The position numbers and the translations under genes were made by a program. Below the pieces are notes generated by a model. It did no database searches and was not told the origin of the DNA. It was given only the letters and a program-made list of their open reading frames with translations. A DNA stretch of 64,000 bases from Micromussa lordhowensis. Its lineage: Eukaryota > Cnidaria > Anthozoa > Scleractinia > Lobophylliidae. The stretch spans positions 124,001-188,000 of the forward strand of contig CAXHUQ010000555.1 of NCBI GenBank assembly GCA_964020085.1, in the 5' to 3' direction. Shown here piece by piece: positions 1 through 38,577 of this stretch (position 1 is the stretch's first letter; each line of letters opens with the position of its first letter).

Positions 1-440
1 TCATTTTGTTATAAAGGGTCGCATAAAGTTACTTTGTATGTTATCAGTATTATTTATTAAAAATAACAAAACACAATGTTAATTATTTGTTAGGATAAAA
101 TATTTAATTTGTTTATGTACATTGAAAGAGCAAATTCAAGTTCATTCCCTATACGTGGTACGTGCATTGTTTCAGGGGATTCTATTTCACTGGCTCTTCG
201 GATGCCAAAGAAGAAGGAACCTGGGTTTGGGCTCCTTCGCACATTGAGATGAACTACAACAACTGGTACATTTCTGTTCATGCCCAGGGGAACAAAGAGC
301 CTAGTGGAGGAATCTCTAAGAACTGCATGTTTATTAGTACCTATAGTCAGAATACGTGGTGGGCCGAGAATTGCAACAACAACAACAAATTCATCTGTGA
401 ATTCGACGCATGCTAGACGCAAACGTACATAGAATCAACA
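1..440 (+). repeat. Inverted duplicate of lectin 3' end, copy A
   Basis: Bases 1-440 match the reverse complement of about 9698-10126. The match covers the last lectin exon, the intron before it and the first bases after the stop codon. It runs off the window on the left and into the gap on the right, so the duplicated unit is longer than seen. Over about 175 bp the intron part shows 3 substitutions and one indel. The exon part is far more diverged. Confidence 0.93.
176..416 (+). CDS. C-type lectin, last exon (partial gene)
   Basis: This is the C-terminal half of a C-type lectin-like domain. The exon begins after a TTTCAG acceptor at about 170-175 and ends at the TAG at 414-416. It encodes about 79 residues with the expected landmarks: the EGTWVW core, an EPS triplet where EPN or QPD sits in sugar-binding lectins, a disulfide Cys, WWAENC in place of the calcium-binding WND motif, and the terminal FICE. 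Upstream exons lie outside the window. Loss of WND suggests weak or no calcium-dependent sugar binding at the canonical site (inference). Compared with its paralogue at 9717-9949, one base is missing at the exon start. The frame then fits a preceding intron of a different phase, or the copy is broken, or the base is a consensus error in a G run. The ORF is otherwise intact. Confidence 0.82.
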
Positions 441-640
441 NNNNNNNNNNNNNNNNNNNNNNNNNNNNNNNNNNNNNNNNNNNNNNNNNNNNNNNNNNNN
501 NNNNNNNNNNNNNNNNNNNNNNNNNNNNNNNNNNNNNNNNNNNNNNNNNNNNNNNNNNNNNNNNNNNNNNNNNNNNNNNNNNNNNNNNNNNNNNNNNNNN
601 NNNNNNNNNNNNNNNNNNNNNNNNNNNNNNNNNNNNNNNN
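441..640. other. Assembly gap (200 N)
   Basis: Exactly 200 N follow the lectin exon directly, so its 3' UTR and poly(A) signal cannot be read. The gap length matches the two others in the window and is a scaffolder placeholder rather than a measured distance. Confidence 0.99.
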
Positions 641-757
641 ACTTGATTAATAAACGTTGGGTATTACACTATATGTGGAATGCTTTGTCTTTTCTCCGAC
701 AGGTATATTAACATATGGTTAAACATAATAAAAACACAACATTAAGACTCATGTTTT

Positions 758-1017
758 TTTTTTTTTTTTTTTTTTAAAGGGGAGACCAGAACGCGCGCCA
801 ATGGTAACGGCTTATGAATGGGTGCCAACTTTGAATTTCGGGATAGGAGCGGGACTTTGGTGATACACCCATTTTTACATGTGGAACGAATACCTGACTA
901 TGGTCAAGCAAAGTTGAAAGTGAAGAGATCAATGATTCGAGCCCTAGTGAGACTCGAACCATCGACCCCTTGCACTACAGGCCAACGCTTAACCTAGTGA
1001 GCTATTCGGCTCCCCCA
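758..1017 (-). mobile_element. tRNA-derived SINE
   Basis: Read on the minus strand, this starts with a tRNA-like head. Box A (TAGCTCACTAGG, 993-1004) and box B (GGTTCGAGTCT, 950-960) are spaced as in RNA polymerase III promoters. A body of about 170 bp of unknown origin follows, then an A tail seen as about 22 T at 754-775. The element is flanked by a perfect 14-bp target site duplication, AAGACTCATGTTTT, at 744-757 and 1018-1031. That duplication fits LINE-driven insertion at a T-run/A junction and suggests a fairly recent event. The parent tRNA is not certain. Confidence 0.88.
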
Positions 1018-1249
1018 AAGACTCATGTTTTAATGCAAGTGTTAATTATATTCTTTGCAAATGCAACCCGAAAATGACACAAAAATAGCGATGTAACAAT
1101 AAATATTTAGTATTCACCATATCTATGTTCTTATTAGCGTCAGATAAGATAAGAACATCAGCAAAATGACAATCGTGTTTGATAGAGCAGCAGTGGAGGC
1201 AATATCAAACATTACTGCCCACTAAACATGTCATTCATACTAATAGCAT

Positions 1250-1400
1250 TTTAGTATGAATTTTTGCGACCCAAGATTATTTGTAATCCAAGGGACTGCA
1301 ACCCAAAATAAATTATTCCCGGGTCGTAGTCTAGGATCATAACCCCGATTATTATAATCTGGGATTAATCCGGAGGTGTGCAACCGGTCAGTAGTCTTTC
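1250..1400 (-). mobile_element. MITE fragment, family of 17055-17885
   Basis: The stretch TAATCCAAGGG...AACCCAAAATAA near 1280-1310 matches, in reverse complement, the interior near 17125-17170. The end GAGGTGTGCAACCGGTCAGTAG resembles the right terminus of that element (GAGGTCATGAACCGAGCAATAG). No convincing left terminus or target duplication is visible, so this is a truncated or strongly diverged copy. Confidence 0.45.
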
Positions 1401-3950
1401 CTATTTGTCGTGAAATAAATAAAGAAGTATTAGGGTAACACAGCTAAAATGCTTTGATAACTGTCCGGGGTTTATTAACGTGGAAAGTATTGTGGATACT
1501 TCAATCAAACCTCATTGCTCATAAACTGGTCATAGAATTTCAGTGAGCTCTTCCGCTTGGAAAATAAAAGCGTAAAGTAAAGACAAGCATTAAATAAAGG
1601 AGATGTAAAGATACCCAATGAATAAAACAAGATATATCAGGGCCTGCCTAATTGTTTCCTGGATCGATTGATTGAAATATAATGTTGCTTATGTATTGTT
1701 TTGTAAATGCATGAGAAAGTGAAATAAAAAGAATTAATAAAGTGCATTGTATCCGTGCATTATCTACTTAATGATGCTTTTCAATATAGATAATTATATA
1801 CATCGAGACGAGTTTCAATGAAATACTTCATCACTTAAAAAATATATTGCCTAGATATTTTGGCAATTATTACAACTAGCAAAGTTATATCTAAATTGAT
1901 ATTAATTCAAAATCGTTAAACCTCGTATTCGACAATGCATAAAAAAGGACAAAGTTGCTTCACAAAACACCGAAAAACACTCACTTTGGTGCCTTTTGGA
2001 ACAATATTGTTACATATGCAAGTATCGTTCTTTTTAGAAACAAGAACCAAGGCGATGAAATGATTTTCTGAGATTAAACGCCTCCTTATTCACTGCAGTG
2101 AATATAAAGGCGTTTAATCTGAGGAACGTTTTATGTTTGTGTGTAAATGTGTACAATAAACGAAACTATTATGTGCCTGTATAGAATTAATCAATTGGTG
2201 AACAAATTTTGCATCAGACGGTCACATAATACTTCACGATACCTAACAATGTATATCGTTTAAGGTTACTGTGTCAAAATCAGCCTCTACTTCGCCAAAA
2301 AAACTGTGAAATATTCTTGTTGGATGTTGACAAATTGAAATCAATAGACCACCCCACCCCCATTCGTCCCTCTCATAATGCATTCATGGTGGCTACATGT
2401 ATAAATGACAAAGCTTTACACTTGGACTCATAAAGCACTCTTATCAATTTATGTAAATCAAATGTCCTCTTAAAAGCCCTTGCACGCTAGAAAAAGTTGC
2501 GTTTTGTTATTTGATAGGTGTATAAGAACAAACTTACAAAGTTAATCACCTGTGGTAAAGCATCCTGAAATTATTTTGCTGTTTGCGTTTGTATAATAAA
2601 CGTTTATTGTAGACACTTTTTTCAAGGAATCCAATTGAAATTTATTCTTATATTCTTGTACTAAACCAGCGCACACCACATAGCGGGTGCATTTATAAAA
2701 ATAGTCCATGTGTGTTAAGGCAAAATGGTGTAATATCTGCCCAAACTGACTTGTCCGAGAGTTGTTGAGTCATTCCGAGACTTGTCAAAAGTGATAAAGC
2801 TTTAGTTACCTTTAATGTTAAACTTGTATCAACTTTATGATGTATAAAATTGCACCGCCTAACTTTTTGCAAAAACAATTTATAGGTGCGCTTTCTTAAA
2901 AATAGTGTGTAAAACTTAAAATTAGTGTGTAAAAATGATAATATAACAAAGCTTTAAACAATTATTTTTAGGAGCTAGAAATAAATCTAAATTACTAATA
3001 GAAGTAATCAGTTGAATATTTTTGAGTTTTGATATAATTAGTAGTATTTTTGAGTAAGCCTTTAATTTTAATCAAGGTAACATTTAAAATTATATAAAGA
3101 ATGAAAATCTTGACCTTTGATCTTTGAACATTCTTGAATGTTTGTTATTCTCTTATATACATTTTAATCGTTATTATGAGTAAAAATGCGGAATATAAGA
3201 CACAAAGACTAAAAAACATTGAAATTGAGATGTTATTCAATTTCTCATAATAAAATGTATGTTTGAATCAGAATGTCAATATCAAAATCAGAGAGGCTCT
3301 TGAAATTATAAAAGGAGAATTAGACATTCTGCAAAAACAACTAAACCAACAATAATAAGGAGAAACAGACACAAGATATGCACAAACTGCAATATAAACT
3401 CATCAACTAAAACTACAAGTATGATGAAAAAAATACCAAACAAAACAACAAGCAAACCAGATGATAAAACATCTCAAAACATTGTGACATTTGATCCATT
3501 CCTGCAATGTAAACTATGCCTTTTTCTATCAGATGTAAATATATATATATATGTTTTTTGTCTAAATAAAACGCTGTTTCCATGGTGAAGTTACAAGGTT
3601 TATGTACATACATCTTAGCTGCACCATACTTGCATATTTACACCATTTACAAATATACATCTGTGTTAGCAGTTCATATGCCAGTGACCCTAATCAAAAT
3701 GACCGGCGCAAGCGTAAAATTTACATGACTTTCTTTGGGTTTCCAGTCTTTATTATTGCAAACCCGAATTAGCTACCTTTACGTGGCATACGACTGCACA
3801 TATATATAGATCGATTAAATTCCTTGGGTTAGTTCGTTTGACACAAAATTTGGGCGTTAGGGAATTTAAACTCACGTCCTACAGCTTCATATGTACTTTT
3901 ATAACAATTAACAGTAATATTGTTTTTACGCAATTGATTAACATCTCTTA
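1401..3950. other. AT-rich intergenic sequence
   Basis: No exon, RNA gene or clear repeat was recognised. Open frames here are short and lack domain-like composition. Confidence 0.5.
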
Positions 3951-4266
3951 GTACTGCAGACCAGTAGACAGATTTTGGACGTGTTTCACAACTCATTACA
4001 TGTGGTGTTTTGATGGTGGATATATTAATGTAACTCGGGCGTATTATGGTAAATACAGTTATACTTGTCACAACGGTGAATGTTGCGTGCCAGACCAGAT
4101 TGAGGATTGTCACGTTTCAGTCGTCGACAATAGACCGAGTCGGCCTTATGGTTACTTAAGATTAAAGCATTTCTTCCTCTTATGAGTATCAAGGATCGGC
4201 TATTGACAAGAGTGTGGAAAACGACTTAGCTGACTACATGCAGATTTATCACAGCTGTGGTATAGG
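3951..4266 (+). pseudogene. Possible SUEL-type galactose-binding lectin fragment
   Basis: After an ATCTCTTAG acceptor-like site at about 3943-3951, an open frame encodes a cysteine-rich stretch of about 78 residues up to the stop at 4183-4185. It contains C-x4-YINVTRAYYGKYSYTC, then EDCHVSVVDN and YLRL. The order of these elements resembles the sea-urchin-egg-lectin (SUEL) fold: C-x-G-x-I-x-V-x-x-A-x-YG early, a C-x-V core, then KYL near the end. The terminal Y-x-C is missing. Another frame opens at 4166 and runs to a GTAAAT donor-like site at 4267, encoding about 33 residues. The shift suggests a decayed exon, or two frames of unrelated chance. No further exons were found nearby. Confidence 0.33.
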
Positions 4267-6474
4267 TAAATTGTTTACATCATAAATTTAATCTGTTCAA
4301 AATAAGTAAAAAAGATGAAGATAGAATCGACGGCCCTACATTTATTTATAACAATGTAAAAAAGATATGACATAACGAGAAAATACCGTGACATATTTCG
4401 TAATGTCCGTTTCGGGGTGTTTATATATTCAGTCTCATCGTTAAGGCGGAGAGTGCTAATTACGGATTCTTTTAAATACTGTGCGATGGTGGGTTTCTTT
4501 GCGAAACTTGGGCAGATAGCGATGGGCATTGCTCATTGATCATTGGTCATTAGTCATTACTCTAGTCGCTGGTCACTGGCCATTGGTTATTGGTCATTAC
4601 TCTATTATGGCAGCTGTTGTAGTGAAATGTGAGGCTGGTCAGGCCTTGTGGGTTAGTACAGGGGATAACTATACCTATATTGAAGGTAGATGGAACCGCT
4701 AATCACTATTTACCGGCTATATGCTGCATCGATATGAAAAATACCTGAATAGTATTGATTTATCATCTGATTAAGAGTCCAAACACTTTATTTATAAACC
4801 TTTTTTTATAAAAATGTTATTCCAAGCTTTGAGAGGCATAGGCTACTATCAAACATCGACAGACTATAAAACATTAACATTGTACTTATACAGGCGTTGC
4901 CCAAGTCCATCCAATAAAAAAAGCGGAATAAGATTGCTAATTGATGTTTTAATTAATTGAGCATTTGAAATCAAATTTTATGATTTTTGTTTTAAGGAAT
5001 AAATAATGATCACATATTTTACCTATTTTGCATAAATGACCGATGTTTATTCATAAAATGATCCATTAATCACAATGCATGATTTTGTCCTGTATAAGTG
5101 TACAACGTTTTATTTCTTATGCGTTGTGCTCTCTGTCCATATGTAAGGTCAAGATTAAGGTTTGGACAATTAATAATCGCAAGGAATTCGAAAAAAACTA
5201 TATCTTGACAATTCATGCCTGTATTAAATAAATGAGTAAGTAACGAAATCGACAATGTGGTGAAAATTTACTTATCAGCTTACTAAGTCACTAGCCAAAA
5301 CTCTAACTTATATACAAGAGAAGGACACACATTGATGGCAAATGAATTGACCTTTATCAGGACGCTGGCTCTAGTTGTGACCATTCTTCAAGTGTTAGAA
5401 TAGTAATAGTATGTCTCTTCAGGCCCTACTTTCTGCAACAATATTGACGTTTTGAGAGCTAATACTAAATTGAACCTGTCGTATCACCCATACTGACATG
5501 GACCTGTATCCTCAATAAAAAGCGCACTATCGTCTACCGTCTAGGTCATTACTAGATGGTGGCTAGTCTTTTATCAAGACTTTTTTGTATGTCACCATAT
5601 ACATTTGAATTTGTATTATAAAATACATAAAATAGCTCGTTACAAAAATATTGAAGGTTAATTGTAGAATAGTAATGAACACAATTACACTCATGATTAT
5701 GCTATTTGCGTTTCAATATATACACATCGTTGATATGATCTGTGCCTTTTTATAGACTTTCTAAGAAAAACCATTCACGACTGAAGAACATAATGCAAAT
5801 TGATATTTATTAAAAATAACTTTAATTATAAACACGTTTAAGCATTCTTTAAGCGTTTATAGCTATCAATAAAAATACATATGAACAATAAGATTTGCTG
5901 GCCTTTTAAAGATAATAAAGAATTTGACAGACGGGTTTGAACTGAAAGCCGTAGATTGTTTTTCAACATTTTATTCCGTTTTAAATATATATAATACATA
6001 TACAAATGTAACAGTAACGGGACATTTTCTATTTACATTACACCACAAAATATGCACATTACGTCTGACCTTTTACCATAGTTGCATTCATCACCATTTA
6101 CCATTTATAACCCAATATACATGTACTTTTTAAAGCCTTGTAGTCGTGCATAATTCATCTATAGATGTGATTCATAGCATTATTCAATGAAAATGTATTT
6201 TTATAAGTTTATACATTCATAAGATATTTTTAAAAATCAAAACTCTAACATTTAGGGCTGGATCGTCAACACCAAAGAGAAAATCTCCTACCTTTACATG
6301 TTTTTGCATAGTCATTTAGGGGATAAATCAAACTAAAAATGTCCGTTAAGAACTTTTTTGAGTATCCACATTGGCATGAGTACTTTGTTGGATCCCATGT
6401 AACTTGCCAGACGGGTTTGTACTGAAAGCCGTAGATGAGTGCTTTAAATAGATGAATACTTTGAGTACTCCCAT
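4267..6474. other. Intergenic sequence with short repeats
   Basis: No gene was recognised. Around 4545-4610 there are degenerate short repeats built on GGTCATTRGTCATT. A 28-bp segment (AGACGGGTTTGAACTGAAAG and the next 8 bases) occurs at 5929-5956 and again at 6409-6436 with one mismatch. Confidence 0.5.
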
Positions 6475-6660
6475 ATAAGCAGGAATACAGCCGACATGAG
6501 AAAGAGGATTGCTCTTGCGCTGACGGCTTGAGATAAACTTTAAAAGATGTGAAGATCATTTTCAAGCAGGATCAAGCTAAGACTGTTCTGCATTGCAGTT
6601 AAAGCCGTTATCCTATACGGGAGCAAGATTCCTCACAAAGTAACTGGTCGCAATATTCAA
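6475..6660 (+). pseudogene. Non-LTR retrotransposon RT fragment
   Basis: Plus-strand frames here read MRKRIALAL, then RIKLRLFCIAVKAVILYGSK (6568-6627). This matches the region downstream of the YADD box in many LINE reverse transcriptases, where KLRLFNSxVKxVLLYGSETW is usual. Stop codons interrupt the stretch between the two blocks, and the flanks do not resemble a full element. It is a dead fragment. The clade cannot be decided from so short a piece. Confidence 0.7.
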
Positions 6661-9615
6661 TAGAAGTTACACCGAGATACTGAGAGCTGTGATCCGGAGC
6701 AGCTGGGAGGTCTACGTCCCAAACAGAGTTATGGAGCTTGTAATATAGAGAGCAATAGAGATATTAGAATACAACTATTTCACATTAATGTATACAATAG
6801 GGATATTTACCCGCGAATCGTGTACATCAAAACTATTTTGCAGGCTTATTTTCATTAAAACTGTTTACATAAAAGAAAAATTCTACCAAAATTGTTGCAA
6901 CAAAGGGCTACCAAAGTTGACCAAAAATGTTTACAAAGAAAAAATGAAAAACGTATATGTATTTCAAAAGGTTATTTGCATTGTTACGGTTCCCATTTGG
7001 TGTATGATATATGTATAATATCATTCACATTTAGAATAATGTATCAAGGTGTAGTCATCAAATTCATTTTTAACATACACTAGATGCTACCCAAGTCCTT
7101 AATATCACTGGTTTAGTTACGAATGAGAAAGTTTTATATACTTTTGCATGTTTATACCACACTCTTTAATATGGTCAGGCTAAATTATCTGCAAACTATA
7201 TTGATGTGCAAAAACTCCTTAGGATCTATTTAATTTCTAAAGACTTTATAACATTACGTGTTTTATAGGTTTCACTACGTTTTATGCCGTATCAGAGAAA
7301 TAACATAGATTCTATGTAGAATCTAGACAATGCCCTAATATTTCTGAATAACTCCTACAGTGCAAAGTAGATGTCAAAGTTTATTTTTTTTCAATATGCT
7401 GATGAAAGACTTTGATATGTAAAATCTGATGTGGCGTTGGTTGAAGTATTTCTTTCGTTCTATTTTTGCTACCTCCATAGTACAATGATCATGCACTTAG
7501 ATTCTGCGTTTGATATGTCTCATGTGTGAATGCATCTAAGGGTTGCAATCGAGCTATTTAAGCGATTCAAGACAAAATCTGAAATAGTTTGACTTAAATT
7601 TGCAATTAATCACTGGTTACTGCGAAATCTATCTGCTATATTACTGAAATATCTCTGAAATATCTTTATTGAACGCGCTTCATTATACGAACCAATGCCT
7701 GAAGCAACCGTTAATATAAGTTAAAGTAGTCAAAGACTAGCTGGGCATTGCGACATGAAAACAAGACTGTCCATGAACAGTACCCTGCTAACCTTTACTC
7801 ATGCAATTGCACAGGTAATGATAAGGATGGGTTCTCACCTACTCAAACATATCTGTGATACGTAATTTATAATTACGTGTTTGCAAATGACATACTGTCA
7901 GCCGAAATCTGTTATGTTTCACTTCGCACAAAATACATATATCCCTGATAGATTGGAACAAGCACATGTAAGACATATCAAGATCTATTTTGCTTGCACC
8001 TGGTAAACATCTCAAATTTAATTACTAACATATTTAAGTGCATTATTTAGAAACCATTCTTTATTAAGCCCCCGATCTAGTATCGATTATATCTTTAGCA
8101 TGTCCTCCATCTGATCAACGGTACCTAAGTAGTTTCTTGGTGCTTTGTTAGTGATTTCTTAGTGGTTCATTCAATGTTTCTTAGTCAATCCATTTTTTTC
8201 TTCAAAAGTAAGATAATCACTGTTAAAATACTTTAAAAACAATGAATTGACAACCTGTGATTGGGTGCTTTTATCATACACGAATGAGTTGAGATGATTT
8301 TTTTTCTGCACTTTTCCGCACTTATAACATACTGTAGCAATCTGTCCAATATCTACAAGCTATATGGTCGGTACAGAATAAGGCGGCTCAAGTTGGTGCC
8401 TTTTGTTTTGACATGTCATTCTTTTTGTACAAAAAAAATAAATTTTTGATTAACGTCAGACCAGGCTCGCAAAACTATTTTTGCCAAGTATAAATATAAT
8501 AGGCTCTTAACTGAAGAAGGAGATCGAGTTTGAGGAAAAGGTATGATAACTAGCGGAGGACGGACACATCATGGTAGCATAAGATCCGCTTTCGTTGGAA
8601 CATGATTCTTAATGATAGTTTATATTAGCTATTTTTGGTGATTCTACTTTTCCTACTTGTCGATGCTTTTAAAAATGTTCCAGTCCAAGTACAATTGCTT
8701 ATCATTCATTATTGCTAAAATTCTCAATATTTTGTGATTTATGAAAAAATATAGTTTTATAAAAAACCATCACCAAAACCTTATTAGTAGAGATATCAAA
8801 AATTTGAATGGGTTTCCAACAAAAAAACTAACATTTAATATATTGTTGTAATATAAAATAAAAATCTTTTAAATCATAAAACAAGATACATTTTGAAAAT
8901 CAAAATTCTAAAATCGTATAATTGATATTTAAACTTTGCAATTTAAGATTATTCAAAATTGTTTAATTCATAATGTAGTGTATTTAAATGTGTATATTTT
9001 AAGTAATTTTATTTGAAATTAAAGAGCGCATCAACGAAATATGCGCATTTTACTTTTAAAACGCAAAGCGTAACTACTGCGGAAATTTTAGTGGCCAAAC
9101 CGATGCCTAAAACTCTCTTAACGCTACGCGTTAGCAGGGTTAAAAAGAAGAAATTATATAATATATAATATATGTATATATATAATATATATACATATAA
9201 GAAAGAAGAGGGAAGCTGGGCTTTACCTATTTTTGCCAGTTAGCGAACTACGTCGGCTGGAACATAAGCGGAATGGCATACTCGATAAACAACAGAGAGA
9301 TGCGGTATACTTTAGCAGGTCGAGGTATTCCACCTCAACCTAATATAATATATAACCTTATTTAATATATATTATTTATATATATAATATATATATACAC
9401 ATATAGTTGATTGATTGATTCACAGATGACAATCTGTAAAGTAAGAGAAAAAACAAAGCAGATAGTTTTTTTATTGATGTACCATAGACATTTATAAACG
9501 TATAATTTTAACAGAAATATTTTACGAGTAAATGTAAGTTAAAGGTGCAATTTAGGTAAATTAAAAGTAAATAAAAGAAAATGGTTGAAACAACACACAG
9601 TATCGATATCATATT
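6661..9615. other. Intergenic sequence with AT palindromic repeats
   Basis: No gene was recognised. Two AT-dinucleotide-rich blocks, at about 9152-9200 and 9342-9405, enclose a GC-richer segment of about 150 bp. The rest is plain AT-rich sequence. Confidence 0.5.
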
Positions 9616-9619
9616 GATT

Positions 9620-9629
9620 TTTATTTATT
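9620..9629 (-). promoter_or_regulatory. Polyadenylation signals of the lectin gene
   Basis: Two overlapping AATAAA hexamers on the minus strand (TTTATT at 9620-9625 and 9624-9629) lie about 90 bases after the lectin stop codon. This spacing suits a short 3' UTR. Confidence 0.6.
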
Positions 9630-9697
9630 TTGAGACGATTTTATATGTCATTTTAAGGATATGTCTAGGCAGAAAAGACATTTGATTCGCTTAATCA

Positions 9698-10126
9698 ATT
9701 CTATGTACGTTTGCGTCTAGCATGCGTCGAATTCACAGATGAAGTATTCGTTGATTTCGCAATCTTTGGAAAGCCACGTATTCTGATCATAGGTACTAAT
9801 AATCATGCAGTTGTAAGAGATTGATTCATATGGCTCATTGAAATACGCAGAAGTGAACCAGTTGGTGTAGTTCATCTCAATGTGCGAAGGAGCCCAAACC
9901 CAGGTTCCTTCTTCTTTGGCATCCGTAGCGCCAGTGTAATAGATTCCCACTGAAACCAATGCACGTACCACGTATAGGGAATGAACTTGAATTTGCTCTT
10001 TCAATGTACATAAACAAATTAAATGTTTTATCCTAACAAATAAGTAACATTGTGTTTTGTTATTTTTTATAAATAATACTGATAACATACAAAGTAACTT
10101 TATGCGACCCTTTATAACAAAATGAG
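9698..10126 (-). repeat. Inverted duplicate of lectin 3' end, copy B
   Basis: This is the partner of the repeat at 1-440. It contains the last exon of the minus-strand lectin gene and part of intron 5. The two copies are arranged tail to tail, with about 9.3 kb between their stop codons. Confidence 0.93.
9717..9949 (-). CDS. Lectin exon 6: C-terminal half of CTLD2 and stop
   Basis: It follows the acceptor GGTTTCAG. It encodes YYTGATDAKEEGTWVWAP, the EPY-containing loop, WLSKDC and FICEFDAC followed by TAG. The last residue of the protein is a cysteine. It is paralogous to the exon at 176-416. Confidence 0.92.
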
Positions 10127-10501
10127 AATGATATATATATAAATATATATATACATATATATATAAGGATGATCATATATATAAGTATGATGAAATTGTT
10201 ATCAGTAGTTTCAAAACCTTTTTTCTTCAGAAACAAAAAAATGATTAACAAGATTTTTGTAATAGATTTGTGGTGTTTTAACAGAAAAAGTAGCATTACA
10301 GGTTTATGCCGAAGTAATTTAACTGCAGAACTATAAATGAATGTAACATATCAAATATCTTCTATCCTTGAGGTATATTTGGCCATTTTGCAGGGGATAA
10401 TTATGTTTTATCTAAATACACGCTTAGGCATCTACAACAAAAATGAAAAAAAAATGTTTTGTGTCGCAGAGCTGTAAGAATATATATATGTATGTAATTG
10501 C

Positions 10502-10550
<49 letters not shown>

Positions 10551-12909
10551 ATTATTTTTTCTTCTCATAAGGGTTTAACTTATTGATTAATAAATTCGTG
10601 AACAACTCACAAATATTTTCTAGCATTATTTGATCCTCAATTTTCTGTTGGATATCAGCATTAAAGATCTGAGCCAGCCTGCCTCCTTCCCTGGTACAGG
10701 CGTCACTGGCGGCTGTCGAATTCAAAAATTCCTGTTTGAATTCGTATCTTACTTCTGAAGTGATATCTGCATTACAGATAAAAACTTATTCATATATATT
10801 ATCAAAACTGTATTATTGTAAAATGTGATTATTAATTTTTTTCTTATCCATTAGCTTATTTTATGTATGAAATTGATGTGAAATTGATGTGACATTCATA
10901 TGAACAAATAAGTGTGTGTATAAGAATAATTAAATAAAAAGAGGCGGTTATCACATCAGTTTGCTGTATAGTTCTTCGTCGTCCAAATCTATTTAAAGTC
11001 ATTATACATAATTCATGTACAGATACTGTTTGCTTCCCATACAATTTACAAAACATTCACCATAAGTCTCCCTTTTCTAATACACATTTAGGAGACGTCA
11101 CAAGAACTAAACATTACTCTTTTATTACTAAATCTGATCGCCTTTAGCATCACTTTAAAATATCACAAAACTTACAAAGCTAAACATATCAACCTATACA
11201 CACAAAATACGCTTGCCACTTAATGTCACACGACAGACTGTAATTGGTATCTAACAGTAAAGACGTTTACTATTAATTGACTTACTACAGTTCATGCCGC
11301 AATAGCCACTGTTACAGGTGCACTCATAGGAGCCGTCTGTATCTTTGCACTCCCCGTGGACACATGGGCTAGCATCACATTCATTTACATCTGTAAAGGA
11401 AAAATATTAGTAAACAAAACATTTTTAATTTTTCCATAGTCTCTTATTACTTTAAATTTGTGTGGCTAATCATTTAGAATATTCTTTATCAATATTAGTA
11501 ATTTACTTTATATTTTGAAATTATGCTTAAGAGTTCATTGTGACTGATAGGTTTTTCCCAAGAGTACATCATAACCTTTGACGTTGCTTTAGGTCAATGG
11601 AATCTAACTGGTATTTTCAAGAGATCGAATTTGTTACATAAACTTAATCAAAGAAGTTAAACTGCAAAAGAAGGCTAGTTGTATTTAAATTAAAGATGCT
11701 ATTAAATACATCATTGATAGCAAAATGTATATATTTACCGGCCACCGTGCTTTTTTCACAAAAATATGGAAACGTTTCGTCACATTGCTTGTCATCAAAT
11801 CTTCCTTTGCGACCCAAGGTAATGATCATGCAATCCTGCCCTCTTCGAGCATTGTTGGGTTGACCGCAAAGCCAGCCGGCGTGAGGGACTGGCTCTCTGG
11901 AACCTTCCCATATAAACTTATCCTCGTTTTCAATGTCATTTCCACCAACCCACACACCTTCATCATTGGCTAAAGCTAAAGTATGACATAAATTAGAGAT
12001 TTAGAGCATATCTGTGATGATAATCACAATTTATTGATGATCAGTACCCACATACATTATTTGTTGTGTTAATTGCAATGAAAAGTTAAATGATACCAAG
12101 AACCTGTGTTGTATGACAACAGCAGGTCGAAATGACAAATATCAATGATTTTTCACGTTTTTGAAGACATTTTAGTTGGACATTATGTTATTTCAAGTAA
12201 AAATTTTGTTTTGCAAATTAACATTAACATCAATCAGCAATTATTTGTGTTTGAATATTTTATCAGTCTTTTAAAAACCTGTAAAATATTAGATTAGGGA
12301 TTGAATAACATACATTTGGCAAAACCATGCATATCCTTGCGCAATTGTTTAGTCTTTGCTTCTGCCAGTCGACCACCCTGGCTTGTACAGCTCGCACTCG
12401 CATCGCTGAAGGTTTTTGGCTCGTTGACAAACCAAACACAAGAGTCTTCTTGTGATAAATCACATTCTAAAGCTAATATAGGAAAACGGAAAAACTATCT
12501 TAGGCTAATCTTGGAAATATAGATTAAACTCTGCAAACTGCCACTAAATGTAAACTCAACGAGTTGTACCATATCCACAACTTTAGCTATTGATAATCCT
12601 TCAACGAAAGATTAAAAGAATGCTAAATTATTTTAGTTAAAATAGTTTTAGATCATACCAAACAATAAACGAGCATTTTAACATTTTAACCTTTATGAAA
12701 CGGATCTTAATTAAGTAGTGGGATACATAACTTTATACATTATCATATGTAAACTTATTTTAGATATACGTTAGTCGATTGAACCGTAGTGAATATATTA
12801 CGCACCCTCATTGTTATAGTCACGTTTTTAACTTTGAAGTATATCTACCTGAAGTAGCAACGTGCACGAGTGCTATCAGTCCACAAATACACAACAGTAA
12901 GACCTTCAT
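9717..12909 (-). CDS. Secreted CTLD-EGF-CTLD lectin, six exons
   Basis: Joining 12909-12849, 12466-12314, 11969-11739, 11390-11286, 10766-10611 and 9949-9717 gives 939 bases, 312 residues plus TAG. Every junction has GT/AG and every intron is phase 1. Residues 1-20 are a signal peptide (MKVLLLCICGLIALVHVATS). CTLD1 spans 21-148, with the WVGGND core, QPN at 108-110 in the ligand loop and F-D-D at 129-131 where WND is usual, so calcium binding is plausible. A calcium-binding EGF domain spans 149-183. CTLD2 spans 184-312, with EPY at 274-276 and WLS at 294-296, so the canonical calcium site is probably lost. Two N-glycosylation sequons (NIT at 184, NST at 199) begin CTLD2. The protein is probably an extracellular recognition lectin. 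Acceptors of exons 2 and 3 have in-frame alternatives 6 bases upstream. A leader exon may exist, since CTTTAG precedes the ATG by 6 bases. Confidence 0.88.
10505..10549. repeat. (TA)n microsatellite in lectin intron 5
   Basis: A 45-bp TA run is flanked by AATTGCAT on the left and ATGCAATT on the right, so the whole block is a perfect palindrome able to form a long hairpin. A second imperfect AT repeat lies at about 10128-10162 in the same intron. Confidence 0.95.
10611..10766 (-). CDS. Lectin exon 5: N-terminal half of CTLD2
   Basis: It encodes RYEFKQEFLNSTAASDACTR and GGRLAQIFNADIQ, the first half of a CTLD. The acceptor is TGCAG and the donor GTGAGT, and both keep phase 1 with the neighbouring exons. 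Confidence 0.87.
11286..11390 (-). CDS. Lectin exon 4: calcium-binding EGF domain
   Basis: One symmetric phase 1-1 exon encodes a whole EGF domain. DVNEC is the calcium-binding signature, and C-K-D-x4-Y-x-C matches the Asp/Asn beta-hydroxylation consensus. There are seven cysteines instead of six. The extra one (residue 179) falls in the GYxGxxC loop. Confidence 0.92.
11739..11969 (-). CDS. Lectin exon 3: C-terminal half of CTLD1
   Basis: It encodes VWVGGND, a tryptophan-containing core, CGQPNN in the ligand loop, QDCMII, RFDDKQC and YFCEK. The donor is GTAAAT. Q-P-N with F-D-D retains acidic or amide side chains at most calcium-ligand positions. Confidence 0.9.
12314..12466 (-). CDS. Lectin exon 2: N-terminal half of CTLD1
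   Basis: It encodes a Cys-rich start followed by the typical first helix region, with SDASASCTSQGGRLAEAKT matching the CTLD pattern A-x3-C-x3-GG-x-LA. It ends in a GTATGT donor. Confidence 0.87.
12849..12909 (-). CDS. Lectin exon 1: start codon and signal peptide
   Basis: ATG is at 12909-12907. The exon encodes 20 residues with a Lys after Met, a hydrophobic core and small residues before the expected cleavage site. It ends TCA G followed by GTAGAT. CTTTAG six bases before the ATG may be the acceptor of a 5' UTR intron. Confidence 0.85.
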
Positions 12910-13243
12910 CTTATTCTAAAGGGAAGAATTAAGATAATTAGCGATGTAATGATTGAGTTGTATGATTTTTAGACACCCGGCTATAAAAAGGATATTCTTT
13001 TATTTTATTTTGCCATATTTTGCCACCAATTATTTATGAATAAACTGCCATTTTAAAACTAATGAGAGAATTTGCGCTACTCACTCCAAATTTACATTAA
13101 ATATTAGCAGTATAGCGAATACCAAAAACCATAAAGTCAAGTGTATTTGATATGATTTTGATATCAGGACACTGGTAATTCTTGTTTTGTAAGTCATTCC
13201 GTTTAGTATATAAACCATGTTTGAAAACTAAATTGTTCATTTG

Positions 13244-18206: not shown

Positions 18207-19720
18207 ACTAGACCGTCAGTAAATGGGGTGCATCAGTGAATTGGGTATATCAGTGAATGGGGATAATCTCTGATTTTAGCATGCATAATCATGCTTTTGG
18301 TCACGTCGTTGTATGTTAAATGGTTTATTTCAATCATCCTTATTTAACCAAAAGAGTGAGTTTTCTGACCTTTTCCAGATGCAAACTACTTTGCGTATCA
18401 TCGTTTATCTTTGTTTTGTAAAACAAAAACAAATATGTCTCCCCCTGCCCCCCTCCCCTGTTCATATTTTTCATTCATTCTCCCTGTTAGCGTTTAAAAA
18501 TTATCTTCTAATTTTTTCCTGATGCATCGTTATATTTGACGATAAAAACGAAGGTTACGAGATAACCTTTTAAGCGATGAAGGTTGGAAAACATAGAAAA
18601 CTTATATCTAAATCGTATTTGCATTCTAGATTTTAAAACGAAATTTGGTATCGAGAGTAAATGTGAGATGAATTAAGAATATACATATAGCGGTGTTGTT
18701 TACGAGCATATCTTTTGCTTTTATGAAGGGAGTCACTATCTTTTGACATATTTTCTAAACTATCACTTGAAGCGGAATACGATCCATGTTTAATTAATTG
18801 ATGTTAAGAGATAACGAAATATGTGTATTTCATGCTAATAAACGACTGTATAAGTTGATATGTACGAACCTCGCGTCTATTTTTAGAGGGCTGGGTCATT
18901 GTCCTATGATATCACATTACTATACATTAAAAACGCAAAAGCTACCTCTTACCGATAAAGTTCAGAGCTCATAGATAAAGACAAATCCAGGAAAACTTAA
19001 GTTTATGAAAGCTGAGTCATTGTCCTTTGGCATCATTGCAATCATTAAAAGAGAAGAAACAATGAACCTGTCAATCTAAACAAATAGTCAACAAAATTCG
19101 AAATGTGCATGCTAATTATATAATATAATAAAAAGCCGAAAACGGGGATCCCTTACAAAGCGGGATGCCAGGGCCTGTCAATCAAAACAATTAGTCAACA
19201 AAATTCCAAAAGTATTATCCCGTTAATATAATATTACAAGCAAGGCATTGGCAATAGGTAACAAAGTATAAATGGCTACACAACTTTGCATTAATAGTCA
19301 TAAAAACAGTAGACGAAACTATTCGTAAAGGAAGCAGCTCGACAAATAACACAGCCTCAGAATTATTAAGGTACACATAATCTCAAACTGCTTTTAATTC
19401 CCCTGAGTACAGCGGCTTAAACAGCATACAGGATATCAGTGTTGTTTACATGCCTCGCTTCCAACGACTTCCACACAGGATCGCCGCTGAATTCGCAAAA
19501 AATGCATGAGCGATAATATAAGAAATAAAGCTATTTTTAAAATCAATAACTTCAACAACTTCAATAGATATGTTACTTATGGAAATTTTTTCAATTTGTT
19601 TCTATGAAAGGTTCTAGGAGATATGGCTTGGACAAGGGTAGCGTAACACACGGATATACGGACGGACGGACATACACGGAGGGAAGAACAATATATGTCT
19701 CCCGCAGGGGGAGACATAAT
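18207..19720 (+). mobile_element. Hairpin-ended repeat family, copy 1
   Basis: It starts ACTAGACCGTCAGT followed by three short repeats of CAGTGAATGGGG type. It ends in a hairpin at 19694-19718 (stem TATGTCTCCC). The reverse complement matches copies 2 and 3 over most of its length. About 300 bp present in copy 2 is missing near 19532. An internal half-hairpin, ATGTCTCCCCCTGC, lies near 18435. No coding capacity was seen. One asymmetric end plus one hairpin end resembles non-autonomous Helitron/Helentron elements or the bivalve 'pearl' repeats (inference). Confidence 0.82.
19694..19718 (+). repeat. Terminal hairpin of copy 1
   Basis: TATGTCTCCC, a 5-base loop and GGGAGACATA form a perfect 10-bp stem at the end of the element. 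Confidence 0.9.
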
Positions 19721-23479: not shown

Positions 23480-24173
23480 TCCTAAAACACGTTACGTCAG
23501 GTTCCGTCCTCTGTCCAGGGTTTAGAGGCTATGCAACATTATCTCAGTCGGTTCTGGACTGCCCGTTTAAACACTGCACAATGTTTTACCCCAGCTAGAT
23601 TAAGGACGTTTTCATCCCACAAGCGCCGAGTCCAACTTACACGCCTCATTTACTTAAGCAACCCCATTGCAAATTCGTTCAGTCATGTTTCGCTCGTCTG
23701 AGAAACTGTCCATGTCTCAACTCATTACAAGAGTGTGGACCTCACATAGCACTTTAACGGGATAAAAGTGACAATCTATGGCAACATAGAACATCTCGCA
23801 TGCTATTATAAGCGGATTTACCATCTTCCGTTATTGTCTGGCCGAGGTATGTAAATCACGACACTTGCTCTACAACTTGTTTATCCGATTCGATGTTCAC
23901 TCTAGGCACAATTCCTTTCTTGCTTATAACCTCAGATTTTGTTTTCATTACTTTCATTTTCATGCCAAAATCTTTCCCAGCTTCGTTCACGCCTGTCGCA
24001 ATTGATAAAAGTTCGGGTCCTGAATCCGCTGTCAACGCGGTGTCGTTTGCATACCTTGGGTAATTGATCTTTTTGACACTTACGGAGACTCCCAGTTCAG
24101 GATTAACAACCCTAAATATAATCTCGGGGAATAGATTAAAGAAATACGGTGACAGTACACTGTCACAGTACAC
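23480..24173 (-). pseudogene. LINE reverse transcriptase fragment (YADD region)
   Basis: The minus frame from 24173 reads VLSPYFFNL, then KINYPRYANDTALTADS and GMKMKVMKTKSEVISKK. These are the B, C and D regions of a non-LTR retrotransposon reverse transcriptase. The catalytic YADD is changed to YAND, which removes the second aspartate. A stop follows after residue 105. A second frame then continues with FTYLGQTITEDGKSA, the block that normally comes next, so there is a frameshift near 23855. Further decayed sequence runs to about 23480. Confidence 0.82.
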
Positions 24174-24539
24174 ATATCTTTCTATCTATCTTCAAACATT
24201 TAGCTAACATACGTAAGCGTTCAGAAAAACGTTATTTTAAACAAAAGTCGATCATTTATTCTGAGATTTTCAAAACGTTTTACAAGAACGTTTTTAAAAC
24301 GTTATGTTTAAATAAACACCTCAGAATAAAAGTTTATGGTCTCTAAATTCAAGCAAAACGAACCTTAACGGTAAACGACAAAGTAGACTTCTTCCTTACT
24401 GACACATGGTTGGCATCCTTCCGTCTACGTAAGACAATGGCCATCTGCAGATTGCATTTCATGCCTTTATTTTGTTTTTTTTTCAGCTTAATTTATAGGT
24501 GGGTTTCGCGATTGCTCAGCTACTTTTTGTCGTGGATTT

Positions 24540-24760: not shown

Positions 24761-25810
24761 TTTAAAGCAGTGCTGTGGCGCTTGGTAAGCCGGGTTTTTT
24801 CAGGACTTATTTGTAATTTCATCTCACCAGGTGATTCCGAGAATGTGTTTAAGAATTTTCAACTGAAAATTGCTTAGTTTCCTTTCTTGTGGTTCTACGT
24901 TTCGCTACCAAAGAAAAGCGTACTGAGAATACAGGCTTATATATTTATTGACTTTTGTAGTTAAGATTAGCTGTGAGTTGTTCTAGGCCCCTTCTTCTAA
25001 GACGGCCAAAGGTTGTGGTTGTTTTACCGATGCGAGTGCTCATTTTTGCATTGCGGTTAAGGGTATCACTTATTGTGGATTCAAGTTAAGAGAACTTTTT
25101 GTTGAAGACTCTCTCTAGTTGCTCACATATCGTTCTTAGTACTCTTTCGATATGCATTTTGATTAGATGTAATTTTGCAATATTGGTGAAAATTACATTA
25201 TTGAAAAGATGACTACCTCTATAGGGGGCTTGTTTATAATTCTAAAGAAAATAGCCCTGCATGAGCTGATTCTGATATACTTGTAATCGTCCATATGGTT
25301 ATTGTTATTCTAGTCTCAATCTCGTACCTCGCTTTTTATTTTTGGATTTGGTATTATGTGTAGGTGGGTGATAACCCCCTCTCCCTTAACAGACTACGGA
25401 CTACGGTCAACAATTTAGCAGGCTAAGGACTCGGAGGTCTAAACCACGGATTCAAGAGTAATTATTGTAACAGTCTAGAGGTTCAGGAAGAGGGGAGGGG
25501 TGTAGGTGGATGGAAACTAATTAACAGTAGACAAAACAAGATATAATTACCTTTTTTGCCAGCATATCTCACCTCCTAACAAAAAAATATGCGAGTTGTA
25601 AGGAGAGATATAGTTAACATATATACGATAAAGCTTGGCTAATGTAAAACATTTGGTTTTTGCCAATATTGCCAACGAGCTATAATTTGATAAGGGTCAC
25701 CTTTTGGACAGAACATCTCACTGAGGGCTCGTCAATGTCGTGGCAAATATATACTGCTTAGAAGATGCGTTTGGATTTTAAAGCACGTTGTTGTAGGCAG
25801 GGCTTTGTCG
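24761..25810. other. Intergenic sequence
   Basis: No gene or RNA was recognised. The LINE similarity just below may extend a short way in, out of frame. Confidence 0.4.
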
Positions 25811-26206
25811 ACTTATTCAGTACCCAAACACCTCAACTCGATACCCGAATGCCTTAACTGAATACCCGAATACCTCAACTCAATACCCGAACACCTCAAC
25901 GCAATAGCCGAACACCTCAACTCAATACCCCAACACCTCAACTCAGTACCCGAACATCTCAACTCAATACCCGAACACCTCAATTCGATACCCGAATGCC
26001 TCAACTGAATACCCGAATACCTCAACTCAATACCTGAACACCTCAGCTCAATACCCGAACACCTCAACTCAGTACCTGAACATCTCAACTCAATACCTGA
26101 ACACCCCAACTCGATATCCGAATGCTTCAACCGAATATACGAATACCTCAACTCAATACCCGAACACTTCAACTCAATTCCCGAACACCTCAACTCAATA
26201 CCCGAC
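25811..26206. repeat. 21-bp minisatellite with higher-order units
   Basis: About 19 head-to-tail copies of a 21-bp unit (typical form CTCAACTCAATACCCGAACA plus C). Diagnostic variants recur in order. Unit type CTCAACTCGATACCCGAATG starts blocks at 25832, 25979 and 26105, so blocks of 7 units (147 bp) and 6 units (126 bp) were themselves duplicated. Because 21 is divisible by three, the minus strand stays open for 126 codons with a CSGIELR-type heptad. This is a consequence of the repeat and not evidence for a protein. Confidence 0.95.
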
Positions 26207-27654
26207 CCAAACCTTTCATAAGTGTGACGTTTGACTTTGACTATATACTGCAGTCGTTACTCAATGCGTTATAATTAGATCTAGTTATGAAAACACATAA
26301 GTATCTTTATGAAATTAACTTTTCTATGCTTTCCAAAACTTAAACCTAGTCATTCATGATTTTTTTGCTAACCGAATCTCACCACACTGTATTTTTTAGA
26401 TACCCGAACTCAAAAAAGGATTTGGGTACCCGAGACAACTGTCGGGTACCCAAGGTACCTTACTCAGCTCTACTTGCAGGTGACATTCATACATAATCGA
26501 TGTACAAACACACATAGAACAAGATGTAAAGCAAATTATATATTCATCCGTTGAATTTGATGCGGTATCACTAAATGGCAAAAAATAGCAAATGGCATTT
26601 TGATTTAATTTGCTAGTACGTTTTACAACATTTCAGAGTTTAGCTACCATTGTTTGATCTATTTGATATATTTGAATTAGAATGATTTCCATGGAAAATG
26701 TTTATTTGTGGCTTCGTGTAGAAAAAACATGGACTTAATTGTTCTTGACTTATTGGTCTTGAGCATTACAAGTGTGTCCAAACAATACCCTCACACAGTT
26801 TAAATCGTAGATACATGTTATTCTTTATAATTAAGTTCATCATTTTGTGTCTCAGTCTGTAATTTTCTATAAGAATTAGCAAAGTAAATGCTTATTTCTG
26901 TCATGTTTCTGTAAGCAAAACTGTTTACAATATTTCATACATGAGCTAAAAATAGCTATAAAAATATAGCTCTCTTTTTGAATACGCATGGATAATTAGG
27001 ATGAGGCAAACATTCTATACAGCAATGGAGTTTCTTTGATAAACCAATGATGTGTTTTTGTTTTAAGAGAAAATTGGCTGAGATATAGAGTGTTTTCTGG
27101 AAAATAACTGTAGTTACTTGTTCAAATCGCAAAGTGATTGAAGAAAAACTTTCTGAAAAATTATGTTTGAGAATATTTATATAGAAGAACAAATTCAAGG
27201 TGTAGTAAATGTTTTTGCTCTACCCTGGTGAGCGTGTTGTTAACTGAAATCGCTGATCCATATGACCTAAGACCACTTTGTATTTACATATATAGCTTTT
27301 TACAGTGTTTGGTGTCCTAGAGCTTTTCAATACATTTTCGAACCAAAATTCCGCCTTAAATATCTTAAGCCATTCCAGAGACATTGCATAAGGCAATCTG
27401 AGAAAAGGTTGACCGCTTTGTGTTTGAACTAAGCCAGCTCAAGCGTGACGTGGACCGATTTTTCTTGAAAATTTTCTGCCTCGATGTAAATTTCGCAATA
27501 TTTTCCTTCCTTTCCCCGTTCTAAAAAGCAACAAAATTATCTAAAATCATATGAAATTTGATATCTGCAGAAACGTTTATGTGTTCACTATTAGGAAAGA
27601 ACTGAGATAAAACGTGTGCGTTTTGTTAAATCAAAATTTCTTATGTTTTTAGAT
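26207..27654. other. Intergenic sequence
   Basis: Near 26400-26460 there are three GGGTACCC-containing segments with the TACCCGA core of the adjacent minisatellite, possibly its diverged edge. No gene was recognised. Confidence 0.45.
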
Positions 27655-35612: not shown

Positions 35613-36183
35613 TTCCCTATCACTATGTGTCCGGCGCACGTTAGTTATATGTTTATTTATTTGCGTGTTTAGTAAACTTTTTGTTTCAAAGTCTACAGTT
35701 TTTAATAGATTCATTTTATATTGCACACGAATCATCCATAGAAAATTCCATATTTGGCTTGTGGTCGGTGTTGCGATATGGTAATTTTTGGCGATTTGCG
35801 ACAATCAACATTTTCTTTAAAAAATGGTCTTGTTTATAGTGAGCATGAAATCAATTCTGGTGTCACAATGGTTTTATTTCTGAATACGGTGTTGGGATAA
35901 GGTGAGCGAGGTGCAAGAAACTATGGTCACAGTCAGCCAATCAGCATTGAGGGCTCGAATTCACAAAAGTACCCCGGTTAGAAAATGTATTTAAATTTAT
36001 AAGCACGTCCTTGCCGATGATTTTAATGTTGATTTAGTTTACAAAATACATTAAGCATTGTATTAAGCAGCATCTGGTTGACAGAAATACATACAAGAAT
36101 ATATTAAGTAATTGTTCGATTAAAAAAATAAATAAACACACAAAAAAGTTGCGATTGTGACACTCGATTAAGGATGTAAATGA
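35613..36183. other. Intergenic sequence
   Basis: No gene was recognised. It may be the body of an element ending in the hairpin at 35586-35612. Confidence 0.35.
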
Positions 36184-36440
36184 GAACGCTAATGAGGAAC
36201 GCCATTCGAAATGCTATTCGGGACGCCATTCAAAACACCATTTGAGACGCCATTCAGGACGCCATTTGGTACACCATTCGTAAAGCCATTCGGAACGCCA
36301 TTGGGATACCATTTGAGACGCCATTTGAGACGCCATTCAGAACGCCATAAGTGACGCCAGTCAAGACGCCATTCGAGACGCTATTTGAGACGGCATTCGT
36401 GAAGCCATTCATGACGCCATTCGGGACGTCATTCGAGACG
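36184..36440. repeat. 12-bp minisatellite
   Basis: About 21 degenerate copies of GACGCCATTCGA in tandem. The GCC(A)TT core is well kept, while the last three positions vary. The length is divisible by three, but stops occur and the array is not near any gene. Confidence 0.92.
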
Positions 36441-36651
36441 CCTAAATGGCGCCATTCATACGTTAAAAATTACAAGCCATTAACCGGGTTACTGTCCTTG
36501 CACAATCTTGTTTTATACTAAACATCAAATGTACTTCCCTGACATATTTACTCTTTTGCATCCATAGTTGTCTTACAACTCCAGTACCCAGTTAAGTTAC
36601 ACTTTCTATATATAAATATTCATCCCATATTAAACACCAAATAATTTGAAT

Positions 36652-36680
36652 TATATGTCTCCCCCTGCGGGAGACATATA
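36652..36680 (-). repeat. Terminal hairpin of copy 2
   Basis: TATATGTCTCCC, loop CCTGC, GGGAGACATATA form a perfect 12-bp stem. Confidence 0.92.
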
Positions 36681-38414
36681 TTGTTTTTCCCTCCGTGTAT
36701 GTCAGTCCGTCCGTGCGTCCGCCAGCCCGTCCGTCCGTGCGTCCGTCCGTTTGTCTGTAACGCTTTGCTTGTCCGAGCCATATCTCCAAGAACTGTTTGT
36801 GCAAAAAATTTGCAAAAATTCCAAAAATAACATACCTACTGAAGTTGTGCAACGAAAAATAAAAATTTAATTTTGCCAAAAATTGTTGAAGTTTTGGTGA
36901 AAAAACCACTTTTTAAAATTGTGTTTTGTCCAGGCCAAATCTCGGTAACTATAAAAGATAGACACCGGAATTTTTTGTAGTACGAGCAAAAACATTTCCC
37001 ATTGTGCAACGTCAGGGTCAAATTTGCAAAATGTCAAATTTTGGTAGATTTTGAACAATTTTTGCAATTTTGATTTCAAAAATGGCTTTATTTCTTATAT
37101 TATCGCTCATGATTTTTTTTTTGCAAATTCAGCGGCGATCCTGTGTGGAAGTCGTTGGAAGCGAGGCATGTAAACAACACTGATATCCTGTATACTGTTT
37201 AAGCCGCTGTACTCAGGGGAATTAAAAGCAGTTCGAGAATATGTGTACCTTAATAATTCTGAGGCTCTGTTATTTGTCGAGCTACTTCCTTTACGAATAG
37301 TTTCGTCTACTGTTTTTTTATTAATGCAATGTTGTGTAGCCATTTATACTTTGTTACCTATTGCCAATGCCTTGCTTGTAATATTGTATTAACGGGATAA
37401 TACATTTGAAATTTTGTTGACTAATTGTTTTGATTGACAGGCCCTGGCATCCCGCTGTGTAGGGGATACCCATTTTTGGCTTTTTATTATATTATATAAT
37501 CGGGATGCACATTTGGAATTTTGTTGACTCTTTGTTATGATTGACAGGTCCTTTGTCTGATTTCTTCTCTTTTAATGATTGCATCCAAAGGACAATGACT
37601 CGGCTTTCATACACTTAAGTTTTCCTGAATTCGTCTTTATCTATGAGCTCTGAACTTTATCGGTAAGAGGTAAGCTTTTGCGTTTTTGATGTATAGTAAT
37701 GTGATATCATAGGACCATGACCCAGCCCTCTAAAAGTAGAAGCGAGGTTCGTACATAATCATCTATACAGTCGTTTATTAGCATGACATACACATATTTG
37801 GCTATCTATTCAACATCAATTAATTAAACATGGATCGTATTCCGCTTCAAGTGATAGTTTAGAAAATATGTCAAAGGACAGTGACTCCGCTTCCTAAAAG
37901 CAAAAGCTATGCTCGTAAACAACACCGCTATATGTATATTCTTTAATTCATCTCAACATTTACTCTCGATACCAATTTCGTTTTAATATCTAAGAATGCA
38001 AATACGATTTAGATATAAGTTTTCTATGTTTTCCAACCTTCATCGCTTAAAAGGTTATCTCGTAACGTTCGTTTTTATTGTCATATATAACGATGCATCA
38101 GAAAAATATAAAGATCATTTTTAAACGCTAACAGGAGAATGCATGAAAAATATGAACAGGGGAGGGAGGGGGCAGGGGGGAGACATATTTGTTTTTGTTT
38201 TAACAAAAACAAAGATAAACGATTATACTCAAAGTGGTTTGCATCTCGAAAAGGTCAGAAACTCGCTCTTTTGGTTAAATGGAGATGTTTGAAATAAACA
38301 TTTAACATACAACGACGTGAACAAAAGCATGATTATGCATGCCAAAATCAGAGATTATCCCGTTCACTGATGTACCCAATTCACTGATGCACCCCATTCA
38401 CTGACGGTCTAGTT
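36652..38414 (-). mobile_element. Hairpin-ended repeat family, copy 2
   Basis: It begins at a hairpin (36652-36680, 12-bp stem TATATGTCTCCC) and ends at ACTGACGGTCTAGT (38400-38413), the exact reverse layout of copy 1. A GTCC-rich microsatellite lies at about 36690-36755. An internal half-hairpin, GGGGGGAGACATAT, lies near 38175. Three versions of the recurring motif GACAATGACCCAGC occur in the distal half. It is non-coding. Confidence 0.85.
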
Positions 38415-38549
38415 CAATTTGATAATAGATTTGAAATTAATATAAACGAAACAGTGTATCTGTCAAGCAATATGAGCTATCGCAATAACATGAAACACAG
38501 TGTTTGCCCATTGTTGTGGTTAGATATCATAAAACGCAACGCTCTTAAT

Positions 38550-38577
38550 TATATGTCTCCCCTGCGGGAGACATATA
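38550..38577 (-). repeat. Terminal hairpin of copy 3
   Basis: TATATGTCTCCC, loop CTGC, GGGAGACATATA form a 12-bp stem with a loop one base shorter than in copy 2. Confidence 0.92.

Follow-up and report, generated by a model that had tools for sequence, protein, structure and literature searches.

Mosaic divergence between two copies of a C-type lectin terminal exon in the stony coral Micromussa lordhowensis

Introduction

In a stretch of 64,000 nucleotides from the genome of the stony coral Micromussa lordhowensis (assembly GCA_964020085.1, contig CAXHUQ010000555.1, positions 124,001 to 188,000 of the forward strand; hereafter the window), the terminal exon of a C-type lectin gene is present in two copies, and these raise the question of how an exon came to differ so strongly beside an intron that hardly differs at all. 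Copy A lies at window 1-435 on the plus strand and copy B, which is the end of a complete gene (gene B), at 9698-10125 on the minus strand, so that the two are inverted and 9.3 kb apart in the scaffold. A first description made from the letters alone (the sequence-only reading) had proposed strong diversifying selection, or a mechanism that targets variation to the lectin pocket while conversion homogenises the flanks. The explanation that we prefer, tentatively and at a little less than even confidence, is that an older block is set in younger flanks and owes its differences to diversifying selection. The features on which the comparison is based are the following.

1-175, plus strand: copy A, end of the last intron with the acceptor AG at 174-175 (98% identical to inverted 9954-10125 over 172 nt)
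176-416, plus strand: copy A, terminal exon encoding the C-terminal part of a C-type lectin-like domain (CTLD), stop codon TAG at 414-416, 5' end one base short relative to the phase of copy B (Pfam, frame analysis)
417-440, plus strand: start of the 3' flank of copy A, the same as in copy B up to base 435 (sequence comparison)
441-640, no strand: assembly gap of 200 N directly after copy A (sequence)
9717-9949, minus strand: exon 6 of gene B (exon of copy B), C-terminal part of the second lectin domain (CTLD2) with the stop codon, partner of copy A (spliced model, 951-nt coding sequence)
9950-10125, minus strand: last intron of gene B, stretch homologous to window 1-175 (inverted-repeat comparison)

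Divergence between the two copies

The introns of the two copies differ by three substitutions in 168 aligned bases (about 1.8%) and by one indel of 1 nt, a missing G near the acceptor. In the exons, 38 of the 225 coding bases that can be aligned differ (17%), and there is a 9-bp indel whose three codons enter none of the codon counts or models. Differences fall in 26 of the 75 aligned codons; in 25 of these the amino acid changes, and the remaining one (CCT/CCA) is silent. Fifteen of the 26 carry a single hit, ten a double and one a triple hit, so that 11 of the 26 are multi-hit codons. The counts of the sequence-only reading were thereby reproduced almost exactly (three substitutions and one indel over intron bases 1-175, about 38 of 224 exon bases plus 9 bp, about 26 residue-changing codons and one synonymous, and 19 consecutive identical core codons), and its contrast between intron and exon divergence held. 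Indeed, nonsynonymous divergence of the exon exceeds intron divergence (34 of 185 sites against 4 of 172, the latter being the three substitutions plus the indel counted as one difference; Fisher P 4.5e-7).

The differences are not spread evenly over the exon. Codons 26-69 hold 34 of the 38, codons 0-6 hold the other four, and codons 7-25 and 70-77 (the FICEF segment and the end) hold none. The identical core (codons 7-25, 19 in a row, including the W-x-W segment) is part of a 60-nt identical run, and the 19 bases past the stop codon are also identical. Chance clustering was rejected: a 60-nt run arose in 7 of 100000 nucleotide shuffles, and a 19-codon run in 174 of 100000.

According to the preferred explanation, copy A would be the terminal exon of a second copy of the gene, which would be a paralogue or, in an animal of high heterozygosity, the second allele, and the exon would be a mosaic. 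Its backbone would be young and would comprise the intron, the 19-codon core, the final 8 codons and the first bases of the 3' flank, and the 41 aligned codons forming the loop region and the C-terminal face of CTLD2 would be an older block, the differences of which would have accumulated by diversifying selection among family members or alleles. Recombination or gene conversion would spread common flanks around the differing blocks. We prefer an older block to some 30 fixations in place during three intron changes on account of three features: codons with multiple hits, the 9-bp indel and the abrupt limits of the variable region. The first two are expected more of an old block than of a young one.

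Further relatives of the exon were sought in the window and in genome scans. In the 64-kb window, all tblastn hits of the gene B protein with E below 0.02 fell in the exons of gene B or in copy A, so that no third related exon was found there; with exon 6 as blastn query, the next matches in the window beyond copy A had E values of 0.14 or worse. A scan of viral contigs gave three pattern matches and no relatives, a scan of bacterial and archaeal genomes gave ten pattern matches and two distant relatives (one 38% identical, the other a 17-residue match), and Rfam gave no matches at gathering scores.

Gene B and the context of copy A

Gene B is an intact gene model at 12909-9717 on the minus strand. 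It has six exons with GT-AG borders, its five introns are all in phase 1, and the open coding sequence of 951 nt, stop codon included, encodes 316 amino acids. The order is a signal-peptide-like segment, CTLD (exons 2-3), EGF-like domain (exon 4) and CTLD (exons 5-6). The exons upstream of exon 6 are as follows.

12849-12909, minus strand: exon 1, start codon and signal-peptide-like segment (spliced model; signal peptide by eye)
12314-12472, minus strand: exon 2, N-terminal part of CTLD1 (spliced model and Pfam)
11739-11975, minus strand: exon 3, C-terminal part of CTLD1, with QPN, and FDD instead of WND (spliced model and Pfam)
11286-11390, minus strand: exon 4, EGF-like domain (spliced model; matches to Notch EGF repeats)
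10611-10766, minus strand: exon 5, N-terminal part of CTLD2 (spliced model; CTLD2 matches solved CTLDs)

The Pfam Lectin_C model (PF00059, curated cut-off 22.6 bits) matches gene B in two stretches (88.6 bits, E 5.6e-25, obtained on a rough hand splice) and also the translation of the copy A exon alone (29.8 bits, E 1e-6), which is above the cut-off. The EGF segment stayed under the cut-offs of the Pfam EGF models and matches solved Notch EGF repeats. Among solved structures, the whole protein is closest to macrophage mannose receptor 1 (MRC1, E 2.7e-23) and CTLD2 to C-type mannose receptor 2 (MRC2, E 1.9e-6); snake snaclec chains also matched in both cases, more weakly. The product of gene B is probably a secreted protein with two lectin domains.

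The assembly bears on whether copy A belongs to a second locus. The gap begins 24 bases past its stop codon, and since all three gaps of the window measure 200 N, their length looks like a scaffolder default. Because of this gap, copies A and B do not stand on contiguous sequence and their inverted arrangement is a statement of the assembly. The visible match of copy A starts at the first base of the window, the counterpart of position 10125 in copy B; this position is 5 bases from an AT microsatellite (10131-10166) in the gene B intron, a place where a contig would be likely to break. It is therefore quite possible, though we lean somewhat away from it, that A and B are alleles or haplotigs of a single locus under balancing selection, A being a contig end that scaffolding misplaced beside B. 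Their intron divergence of about 1.8% resembles the mean heterozygosity of 1.73% reported for the Mediterranean mussel (PMC7653742), the animal of comparison being a bivalve. The term 'paralogues', used in the sequence-only reading, is for these reasons not established. On the other side, window base 1 may be just the border of a tile and not the end of a contig, scaffolders also place true neighbours together, and few genes other than recognition genes show allelic exon divergence as high as 17%.

The reading frame of copy A bears on a further explanation. Copy A lacks the base directly after the acceptor AG: CAG is followed by GGGATTC in copy A and by TGGGAATC in copy B. The exon of copy B (233 nt) fits phase 1; that of copy A measures 241 nt where 242 are required, and none of the eight AG dinucleotides in its visible intron provides an open phase-1 acceptor. 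If the upstream exon has the phase found in gene B, copy A is out of frame because of the missing first base; spliced like B, its shifted reading reaches a stop after 25 codons. Copy A may accordingly be a pseudogene, or follow an upstream exon of another phase, or contain a one-base assembly error. That it is a pseudogene or relic exon, released from selection once its frame was broken, is in our view rather unlikely, although a serious candidate. Its lectin frame is itself open over 78 codons and the framework residues are kept, the single base may have been lost to misassembly where a contig ends, and the upstream exon lies outside the visible sequence. Moreover, decay at the rate of the intron would have left about 4 differences in 225 bases, against the 38 seen. 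The allelic and the pseudogene explanations overlap with both mechanisms of divergence, the older block and selection in place, and the likelihoods given here do not sum to one.

Substitution models

Estimates of the ratio of nonsynonymous to synonymous rates (dN/dS, omega) from these two copies bear out strong diversifying selection, as read from the letters, in part. With the exon alone, the method of Nei and Gojobori (NG86) gave dN 0.213 and dS 0.098 (Fisher P 0.25) and maximum likelihood gave an omega of 3.2 (P 0.043); these values are modest because 11 of the 26 changed codons carry two or three hits. With the silent rate of the exon tied to that of the intron, omega rises to 8.6 (likelihood-ratio statistic 30.6, P 3e-8 against a single neutral rate), and equality of the two rates was not rejected (P 0.22). 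A single neutral rate for intron and exon was itself rejected (Akaike information criterion, AIC, 1384.62).

Without a block, a uniformly faster exon (AIC 1357.87) and one rate with one omega (AIC 1356.01) perform similarly, with log likelihoods of -675.93 for the faster exon at omega 1 and -675.00 for selection at one rate, at equal numbers of parameters. Both gain more than 10 log units when codons 26-69 are allowed to differ. A block with its own age reaches an AIC of 1334.73 at omega 1 and of 1334.03 with its own omega (2.8); a block of the age of the intron reaches 1335.24 with a block omega of 13 and 1335.96 with two omegas (17.8 and 2.2). These four models cannot be ranked among themselves. 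Divergence of the exon or block under ordinary purifying selection is clearly disfavoured, and was rejected at omega 0.2: the log likelihood of the block falls from -271.14 at omega 3 and -272.78 at omega 1 to -275.88 at omega 0.5 and -282.74 at omega 0.2, a clearly worse fit. The class of explanation first proposed, a diversified binding face whether or not the flanks are converted, was consequently right, the single neutral rate having been rejected and purifying selection fitting worse, but AIC values of 1335.24 and 1334.73 do not separate positive selection in place from an older block set in younger flanks.

Silent sites could in principle date the block. Path counting gives 4 silent changes in 40 sites for the exon against 4 in 172 for the intron (Fisher P 0.043), a difference that disappears when the two certain silent changes alone are counted (P 0.32). 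In the amino-acid-conserved codons of the whole exon, one change is found in about 26 silent sites, a proportion like that of the intron (Fisher P 0.44) and improbable at a rate of 0.195 (probability 0.026). Inside the block the same count is one in about 10 (probability 0.39), too few to decide.

Several of these results favour diversifying selection in place, in which the copies split recently, at about 2% intron divergence, and point mutations of the binding face were fixed far above the neutral rate with no exchange. The joint omega of 8.6, the retained equality of silent rates and the conserved-codon silent sites all agree with it. It would, on the other hand, need a block omega of about 13 to 18 and would have to produce 11 multi-hit codons and a 9-bp indel quickly, and the exon-only omega barely exceeds 1; we consider it unlikely.

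A number of points weigh against the older block itself. Selection in place fits nearly as well, and the block model at omega 1 requires no selection. The limits of the block were set after the differences had been seen, so that the AIC values of the block models are unfairly favoured over those of the other models. The silent sites of conserved codons over the whole exon lean towards a young age. All four differences in codons 0-6 change residues and would be left unexplained by one older block. Finally, neither a donor nor a third copy was found in the window and the scans, which weakens this explanation.

Diversity-generating retroelements confine their changes to template adenines and have a dedicated reverse transcriptase beside the gene that they vary. 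In our recount of the 38 coding differences (a MAFFT-based table with 47 differences, having misplaced gaps near the acceptor and the end, was excluded), the starting bases are A 12, G 12, T 10 and C 4 in copy A and T 13, A 12, C 7 and G 6 in copy B. A mutator restricted to adenines is thus rejected, 12 of 38 changes starting from A in either direction. A dedicated mutator of the exon, resembling a diversity-generating retroelement or somatic hypermutation, is accordingly very improbable. The sole point for it is that the changes crowd into a single block while the flanks are quiet; against it, the starting bases are spread, the window has no copy of the exon besides A and exon 6 of gene B, and germline copies alone are unable to show somatic change. 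The spread of starting bases also leaves the targeting of variation to the lectin pocket, as proposed earlier, without support.

The variable block and the binding site

In an alignment with solved domains, the variable block begins with the Y-x-N-W segment, continues across the loop in which sugar-binding lectins have EPN or QPD, and reaches the WND position and the final loop. The framework residues, namely both cysteines, W-x-W, QNTW and FICEF, are kept in both copies. Canonical Ca-dependent sugar-binding CTLDs have EPN or QPD together with the WND residues. By eye, these canonical residues are absent from CTLD2, which has EPS and WWA in copy A and EPY and WLS in copy B. Because they are absent from both copies, Ca-dependent sugar binding by CTLD2 is doubtful, and binding of a protein or of another surface would be as likely. 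The changes had been described as clustering in EPN/WND loops that set ligand specificity; the block does span those loop positions, and a role in specificity may be supposed, but the canonical residues are absent and copy A is possibly out of frame.

CTLD1 of gene B (11739-11975, minus strand) also departs from the canonical sugar-binding motif rule, with QPN and, by eye, FDD at the WND position, unlike CTLD2. The two lectin domains of the protein may therefore be specialised differently.

Other elements of the window

Two inverted copies of a BEL/Pao-type retrotransposon are present, at 59168-64000 (plus strand) and at about 43544-48196 (minus strand), and are 79-92% alike by segment among the 25 listed of 47 inverted pairs. 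The plus-strand copy has open reading frames of 1000 and 376 amino acids (DUF1759, Peptidase_A17, and RVT_1 under its cut-off); the minus-strand copy has none longer than 247 amino acids. A dispersed repeat occupies three places in 18511-19710 and 36662-39157, as two direct copies about 1865 bases apart and one inverted copy, with 86-99% identity by segment. Minisatellites with 21-bp and 12-bp units are found at 25758-26282 and 36172-36457, and since these units are divisible by three they give open frames of repeated peptides. A profile scan of nine open reading frames outside window 1-13000 also showed a weak reverse-transcriptase fragment (PF00078, E 8.8e-6, under the curated cut-off) at 23856-24185 on the minus strand.

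Comparison with known systems and conclusions

Conserved introns with accelerated exons are classical for venom phospholipases, snaclecs and oyster bindin, and lectins that evolve fast are known from the sperm and the immunity of molluscs. The low-divergence intron beside a diverged exon described here, in two copies, is a pattern typical of such fast-evolving recognition proteins. The snake venom phospholipase A2 and snaclec genes are alike in that the intron is more conserved than the exon and changes fall at surface or binding positions, and snaclecs have the CTLD fold in common with gene B; they differ in domain layout, and there is no venom evidence for gene B. The F-lectin repeats of oyster sperm bindin likewise belong to an invertebrate lectin whose binding face is diversified, and recombination takes place around their conserved introns, but they are of F-type, not C-type, and vary in repeat number. 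Sperm lysins of Mytilus with the C-type lectin fold are also fast-evolving CTLD proteins, but have a single CTLD and no EGF domain. MRC1 and MRC2, the best matches among solved structures, are large membrane receptors; CTLD2 of gene B, for its part, is without the sugar-binding residues.

As it stands, the finding comprises two copies, one of them at an assembly gap, and adds an example to a known pattern. It is conceivable, though a long shot, that the locus is part of a cassette system, in which conversion, with the conserved intron, core and 3' flank as its anchors, would exchange terminal-exon blocks for the binding face among a large number of copies. Every animal or haplotype would then have a distinct set of secreted lectins with two domains, and exons such as copy A, with its broken frame, would belong to this set as silent donors. 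Should further family members exist and show the same mosaic, they would constitute a family of invertebrate lectins whose binding face is set apart from the adjoining sequence through recombination and selection, and would provide a natural series for testing lectin recognition and the upkeep of diversity in a germline repertoire.

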